Shown in pieces: positions 6,131-6,454 of a DNA stretch of 64,000 bases. The notes under the pieces are model-generated. The model had not been told where the DNA came from. It was given only the letters and a program-made list of their open reading frames with translations, and ran no database searches. Position 1 is the stretch's first letter; each line of letters starts with the position of its first letter. Source of the stretch: Geobacillus thermoleovorans (lineage in GTDB: Bacteria > Bacillota > Bacilli > Bacillales > Anoxybacillaceae); assembly GCF_001610955.1 (NCBI RefSeq), contig NZ_CP014335.1, forward strand, positions 2,985,001-3,049,000, given 5' to 3'. Made by a program: the position numbers and the translations under genes.

Positions 6131-6149
6131 CATCATCACCTATTTTCGA

Positions 6150-6391
6150 CTATATAGATGCAACTTGAAGCTTTAACATTTGCGGCTTCGAGCATTTGAT
6201 CGACTGTCGAGCGACCGAACAACGCTGCTTTCAGACCCATGCATGGGGCTGTGAAGCGAGCGGTTGTTCGGCCTCCCGCCACGCCTTGGCGTGACGGGGG
6301 CAAGCCACAGGCTTGCCCTCGACAGTCGAAAATGGATAAACGACTTTTCCGTCAAGCATATGTTAAACGGTCTCGTTGCATCTTTATAGCT
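6150..6391 (-). other. Nested inverted-repeat structure in the ftsE leader
   Basis: The outer arms are about 33 bp and imperfect (6150-6182 against 6358-6391; shared core CTATAnAGATGCAAC then TTTAACAT). Inside is a perfect 12-bp stem, TCGACTGTCGAG (6200-6211) with CTCGACAGTCGA (6318-6329), which closes three hairpins: CCGAACAAC/GTTGTTCGG (6215-6271), CCCGCCACGCC/GGCGTGACGGG (6275-6298, one mismatch) and GCAAGCC/GGCTTGC (6300-6316). As RNA this would fold into a four-way cloverleaf on a long stalk, just upstream of the ftsE ribosome site. It may be a regulatory leader, a small RNA or a MITE-like element. No target-site duplication is obvious. Confidence 0.8.
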
Positions 6392-6445: not shown

Positions 6446-6454
6446 ATTATAGCA
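6446..6454 (-). promoter_or_regulatory. Likely extended -10 promoter of ftsEX
   Basis: The minus strand reads TGCTATAAT (TG at 6453-6454, TATAAT at 6446-6451), an extended -10 element; a poor TCGACA lies too close upstream to be a normal -35. It is downstream of the cccB terminator and ahead of ftsE, so the transcript would begin near 6439 and include the whole structured leader. Confidence 0.55.

Follow-up and report, generated by a model that had tools for sequence, protein, structure and literature searches.

The repeat in the ftsE leader of Geobacillus thermoleovorans is best explained, with a probability of roughly 0.83, as a 234-bp non-coding, TA-flanked MITE that would be moved in trans by an IS630-family transposase, with a cloverleaf interior kept as a DNA structure and with cores and ends reassorted. 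The dispersed copies, the target sites, the similarity of the ends, the core shared with other elements and the flips of hairpin loops were all observed directly. The window is the whole stretch of DNA that was analysed, 64,000 nucleotides in length.

Structure and position of the repeat

The repeat occupies positions 6151-6388 on the minus strand of the window and consists of 34-nt arms around a 12-bp stem, which encloses three hairpins (Table 1). The nested, cloverleaf-like inverted repeat proposed in the preliminary description was thus recovered with its arms, its perfect 12-bp stem and its inner hairpins. The outer arms (6150-6183 and 6356-6389, 34 nt) show a complementarity of 79%, and the perfect 12-bp stem pairs 6200-6211 with 6318-6329. 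Because the extended -10 is at 6446-6454 and the ribosome site at 6137-6141, the repeat lies between the promoter and the ribosome site of ftsE, as had been described from the sequence. The 5'-side terminal repeat (6356..6386) together with its TA reads TATAAAGATGCAA, with one change relative to the family motif TATATAGATGCAA. In hairpin C, the tip CCCATGCATGGG becomes AAATGCATTT in other genera, which is a paired change. Slightly larger stretches fold more stably than dinucleotide shuffles by about 10 standard deviations on either strand (z = -10.3 and -10.0), and none of the shuffles folded equally well in two runs (0/100 and 0/200).

Table 1. Features of the ftsE-leader element and its surroundings, in window positions.
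Feature	Positions	Strand	Basis or remark
Whole class I element, including TA at both ends	6151..6388	-	End motifs 6151-6163 and 6376-6388; empty sites in relatives
Element proper, without the TAs	6153-6386		234 bp (238 bp with TAs)
TA, putative target-site duplication	6151..6152	.	Other insertion sites; empty ftsE relatives do not read TA here
TA, putative target-site duplication, other side	6387..6388	.	Other insertion sites; empty ftsE relatives do not read TA here
Terminal inverted repeat, 3' end in ftsE sense, TATAGATGCAACTTGAAGCTTTAAC...	6153..6183	+	Arm search, family alignment; consensus 24/31 against IS630-a right end
Terminal inverted repeat, 5' end in ftsE sense	6356..6386	-	Arm search, end motif, family alignment
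Closing stem P1, 5' arm	6318..6329	-	Inverted-repeat search, fold, covariation (helix 4)
Closing stem P1, 3' arm	6200..6211	-	Inverted-repeat search, fold, covariation
Hairpin A, GGCAAGCC-TGT-GGCTTGCC	6299..6317	-	Fold; loop in both orientations across family
Hairpin B, tip CACGC-CAAG-GCGTG	6275..6298	-	Fold; loop in both orientations across family
Hairpin C, long stem, tip CCCATGCATGGG	6213..6273	-	Fold, covariation (helices 7-9)
ftsE ribosome site AGGTG	6137..6141	-	Sequence; 9 nt from element end; conserved in relatives
Extended -10 TGCTATAAT, putative ftsE promoter	6446..6454	-	Sequence; kept with and without element

Copies and distribution

The preliminary description had proposed a BLAST search for copies elsewhere in the genome as a means of telling a MITE from a leader RNA, and the many copies found favour a MITE. 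The ftsE-leader region gave 81 matches in its own genome, and in 19 of these the match extends over 200 or more of the 271 bases; full copies are about 240 bp long. A covariance model of the core (134 nt, built from 28 copies) placed it at no fewer than 30 distinct sites in the same genome (62 matches on both strands, E ≤ 0.01; the weakest site has E = 0.003, and the remaining matches are opposite-strand hits to the same sites), which is a lower bound because 150 of 1467 candidates were scored. The end motif TATATAGATGCAA, with at most one mismatch, occurred 46 times, compared with once for a reversed control. Among the 67 copies with both neighbouring genes called, none lies inside a called ORF, although in some cases a called ORF runs into an end of the copy, by 81 bases at most. 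The family is therefore short, non-coding by the ORF list and present in many dispersed copies. As to strand, the at least 30 core sites in the window's genome divide into 24 with a minus-strand and 6 with a plus-strand copy; in other genomes the strands appear mixed among the matches listed.

BLAST matches were found in 24 of 61 genomes, comprising every one of the 14 genus genomes, 10 of the 23 from the rest of the family and none of 24 from the other families of the order; when 299 genomes of the order were searched with the class I model, 282 gave no match. A phage origin was rejected: neither class I nor class II matched the phage collection, and two matches on viral contigs have both ends and resemble ordinary class I copies. 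Three of the at least 80 records from a pattern scan (Pedosphaera, HTCC2207 and E14 MAGs) were excluded, because visual inspection showed that the remainder of the core was missing. No prior description of the class I repeat was found among the listed titles and abstract openings of the open-licence PMC literature, and the word Geobacillus does not appear in the main text of PMC2267715 or PMC3733652. The chromosome of G. kaustophilus HTA426 carries four IS630 copies, and the consulted sections of that source mention neither MITE nor miniature (PMC8024623).

Insertion at ftsE and at other sites

At ftsE the repeat is present in three of the 14 genus genomes, namely the window's genome, one relative with the same copy and another with a left-truncated copy. 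The ftsE leader is empty in 10 of 13 genus relatives and in all five other family members read, and a second comparison agreed. The element would have landed between the ftsE promoter and the ribosome site in a common ancestor of the window's genome and two relatives, and is probably a tolerated passenger there that lengthens the leader. When eight sites were compared in five relatives, a clean empty site was found at six, of which four read TA and two CA. Insertion at TA with TA duplication is what these sites mostly record; against the MITE reading, the empty relatives at the ftsE site itself do not read TA.

The preliminary description had offered, as its alternative to a MITE, a riboswitch-like leader or processed small RNA, and synteny rejects an ftsE-specific regulator, since the site is unoccupied in 10 of the 13 genus relatives. 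A cis-acting leader RNA or processed sRNA regulating ftsEX would fit the location between promoter and ribosome site, the very stable fold and the covariation above shuffles described below, but the same empty leaders (10/13 and 5/5), the dispersed copies adjoining other genes in all orientations, the loops that flip in place and the lack of an Rfam match leave it hardly any chance. The repeat is thus not conserved upstream of orthologous genes, nor are its loops conserved, those of hairpins A and B being found in both orientations. As had been stated, no Rfam family reached its gathering score in the window; three weak matches around the repeat (E ≤ 5) are far below the cut-off, and no described RNA family covers the core, two matches from a separate search lying outside it. 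An intrinsic terminator was likewise rejected, as no T-run follows P1 on its 3' side on either strand.

Terminal repeats and the IS630 family

The MITE alternative gained from the ends as well, which resemble those of IS630 elements, in addition to the scattered copies and mostly TA targets. IS630-family elements of about 1.2 kb with ends TATATACATGC were identified, one of them in the window's genome (L216). The transposase is in two frames, which score 98.1 and 155.9 bits against NF033545 (cut-off 100), with a DDE_3 domain. Of 31 positions compared, 24 are identical between the end consensus of the repeat family and the right end of IS630-a, or 18 of 25 without TATATA; the latter score is reached at two positions in the window (both strands), of which one, with a score of 24, should be the element itself. 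Terminal repeats are therefore common to the repeat and an insertion sequence of the same genome, in the sense that they are similar and not identical, and the activity of the two-frame transposase is putative. No insertion sequence with exactly the ends of the element was present among 28 transposase loci scanned (of 111 matches). An IS630-family transposase would move the element in trans by recognising its ends.

Pairing, covariation and loop flips

The stems covary, with 93.3% of cells paired and a covariation score of 0.113, versus 0.078 in shuffles. In the core stems, G-U pairs occupy 124 cells and A-C pairs 97 (30 versus 28 pair columns), while the outer arms have 104 and 49 cells (14 versus 12 columns). 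Tip-anchored G-U/A-C counts were 16/3 for class I hairpin C, 18/2 for class II hairpin B and 13/17 for class I hairpin A. Across the 67 copies, the loop of hairpin A reads ACA in 17 and TGT in 11, and that of hairpin B reads CAAG in 17 and CTTG in 8, or TAAG and CTTA in 4 each. Other loops occur in one orientation, such as CTTC in hairpin B (12/0) and CATTCATG in hairpin C (9/0), and the loops of hairpin C are mostly in one orientation. The orthologous copies L003 and L124 differ at seven positions, three of which are a loop flip, and L003 and L130 differ at seven, two of which are the other loop. No flip was seen in the orthologous pairs L013/L119 (3 differences) and L003/L131 (19 differences). 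Additionally, two class II copies show clean loss of whole hairpins.

Because loops flip between orthologues, hairpins can be missing and A-C is nearly as common as G-U in the core, we read the cloverleaf fold as kept at the DNA level, with selection as RNA less likely. Against this, the stem pairing and covariation would also fit RNA selection, and the G-U excess in the outer arms and some hairpins, the loops known in one orientation and the orthologous pairs that show no flip point the same way. Template switching or recombination at hairpins, in the course of replication, may repair the palindromes and invert their loops. We infer mobilisation in trans, template switching, the passenger status of the ftsE copy and DNA as the level of fold maintenance. 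The preliminary description had relied on covariation to discriminate between RNA and MITE, which failed, since covariation is present although the element is, on our reading, a MITE; the loop flips suggest that covariation can arise at the DNA level.

It is rather unlikely that the element is a DNA-level MITE whose cloverleaf is also selected as RNA in every co-transcribed copy, perhaps as an mRNA stabiliser or as an RNase III site, the latter having been proposed for NEMIS in Neisseria (PMC2229807, sections consulted). The long, nearly perfect stems and the G-U counts above A-C in the outer arms and some hairpins speak for such selection, as do the 49 of 67 copies that lie between codirectional genes, but these run 30 along and 19 against the flanking genes (orthologous copies included), the core stems overall show little G-U excess, and the loops flip. 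A bias in gene orientation was not convincing, and the result of a cruder ORF caller (15 of 20 copies followed at their 3' end by a gene that points away from them) was set aside, as that caller miscalled the gene beside ftsE.

The core between other transposon ends

A homologous three-hairpin core is also found between GGCTCTTTTCT ends with 8-bp duplications, between CAGGCGTGTTGATTA ends with duplications of about 9 bp and between a second IS630-type end. At least three other end types thus carry a homologous core, and therefore cores and ends have been reassorted. In one genome (G166), class I and class II are 71% identical (z = 12.3) and agree in their P1 letters, TTTTCGACTGTC; an identity of 80% was obtained for class III against class IV (z = 16.4 and 19.5). 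The likeness between Geobacillus class I and class III is lower (z = 4.5 to 5.0), and Natronobacillus cores are weakly alike to class I and III (z = 2.8 to 4.7), both from single-nucleotide shuffles that do not preserve palindromes. These low values and the type of shuffle behind them would suit convergence, by which any stable hairpin array looks alike to a covariance model. We consider convergence improbable, as the strong class I/II and class III/IV identities, the common P1 letters and the 282 of 299 genomes without a class I match argue against it.

Two candidate parents of the other classes were not supported. They are ISL3 for class II, whose end was absent from all 10 PF01610 loci retrieved, and ISLre2 for class III, whose ends do not match at the 16 UPF0236 (ISLre2) loci checked. 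A motif similar to the class III end is present at two of these loci (L385 and L393), and L385 resembles a fragment of class III next to an ISLre2 element, with the matching right end absent.

The occurrence of the core in related bacteria between other transposon ends suggests that it may be a portable DNA module. Tentatively, and with somewhat less than even odds, selection could act on the folded state of such a module, for instance on a single-stranded cloverleaf to which a host or transposition factor binds; the module would have moved between at least four end sets served by at least three transposition mechanisms (judged by the TA, 8-bp and 9-bp duplications) and in this way reached several families of the order.

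Implications and comparison with known systems

What lies between the two transposase sites of a MITE is usually considered filler. Here, a structured interior stays while the ends are exchanged, which suggests that it is the interior that persists, and a set of elements with changing ends provides concrete material for asking why. Furthermore, covariation in leaders is often taken as proof of functional RNA and here it occurs in a transposon, which calls for caution in RNA discovery; when leader covariation is judged, orthologous copies should be inspected for inverted loops as a warning sign.

According to the portions of the sources consulted, RUP of Streptococcus pneumoniae, with IS630-Spn1, is like class I a non-coding dispersed repeat with IS630-like inverted-repeat ends and a TA target (PMC2229807, PMC3049150), and the Geobacillus MITE would operate in the manner of RUP. 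Compared by description, RUP is 107 bp and AT-rich, whereas the Geobacillus element is 234 bp with a three-hairpin core in a different host, and homologous cores occur with other ends. The element does not belong to RUP, being 238 bp with its TAs and found in Geobacillus and relatives, while RUP is about 107 bp and found in S. pneumoniae and close relatives. The bcr1-bcr18 elements of the Bacillus cereus group are similarly dispersed intergenic repeats of Bacillaceae, some MITE-like, some structure-conserved and many transcribed in UTRs; the likeness is by description, not sequence, and a core common to different ends is not mentioned in the sections consulted (PMC3446304). BOX of S. pneumoniae is, in the consulted part of its source, also an interspersed repeat that is modular and strongly structured and for which an IS helper has been proposed (PMC3049150), but in BOX the number of internal modules varies, whereas in the Geobacillus element the plan of the core is fixed and the ends vary. 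Finally, compensatory changes and loop inversions in the hairpins of RNA genes have likewise been explained by template switching during replication; in the consulted part of that study loop inversions are rare in rRNA (PMC8794818), whereas hairpins A and B of the element show them frequently.
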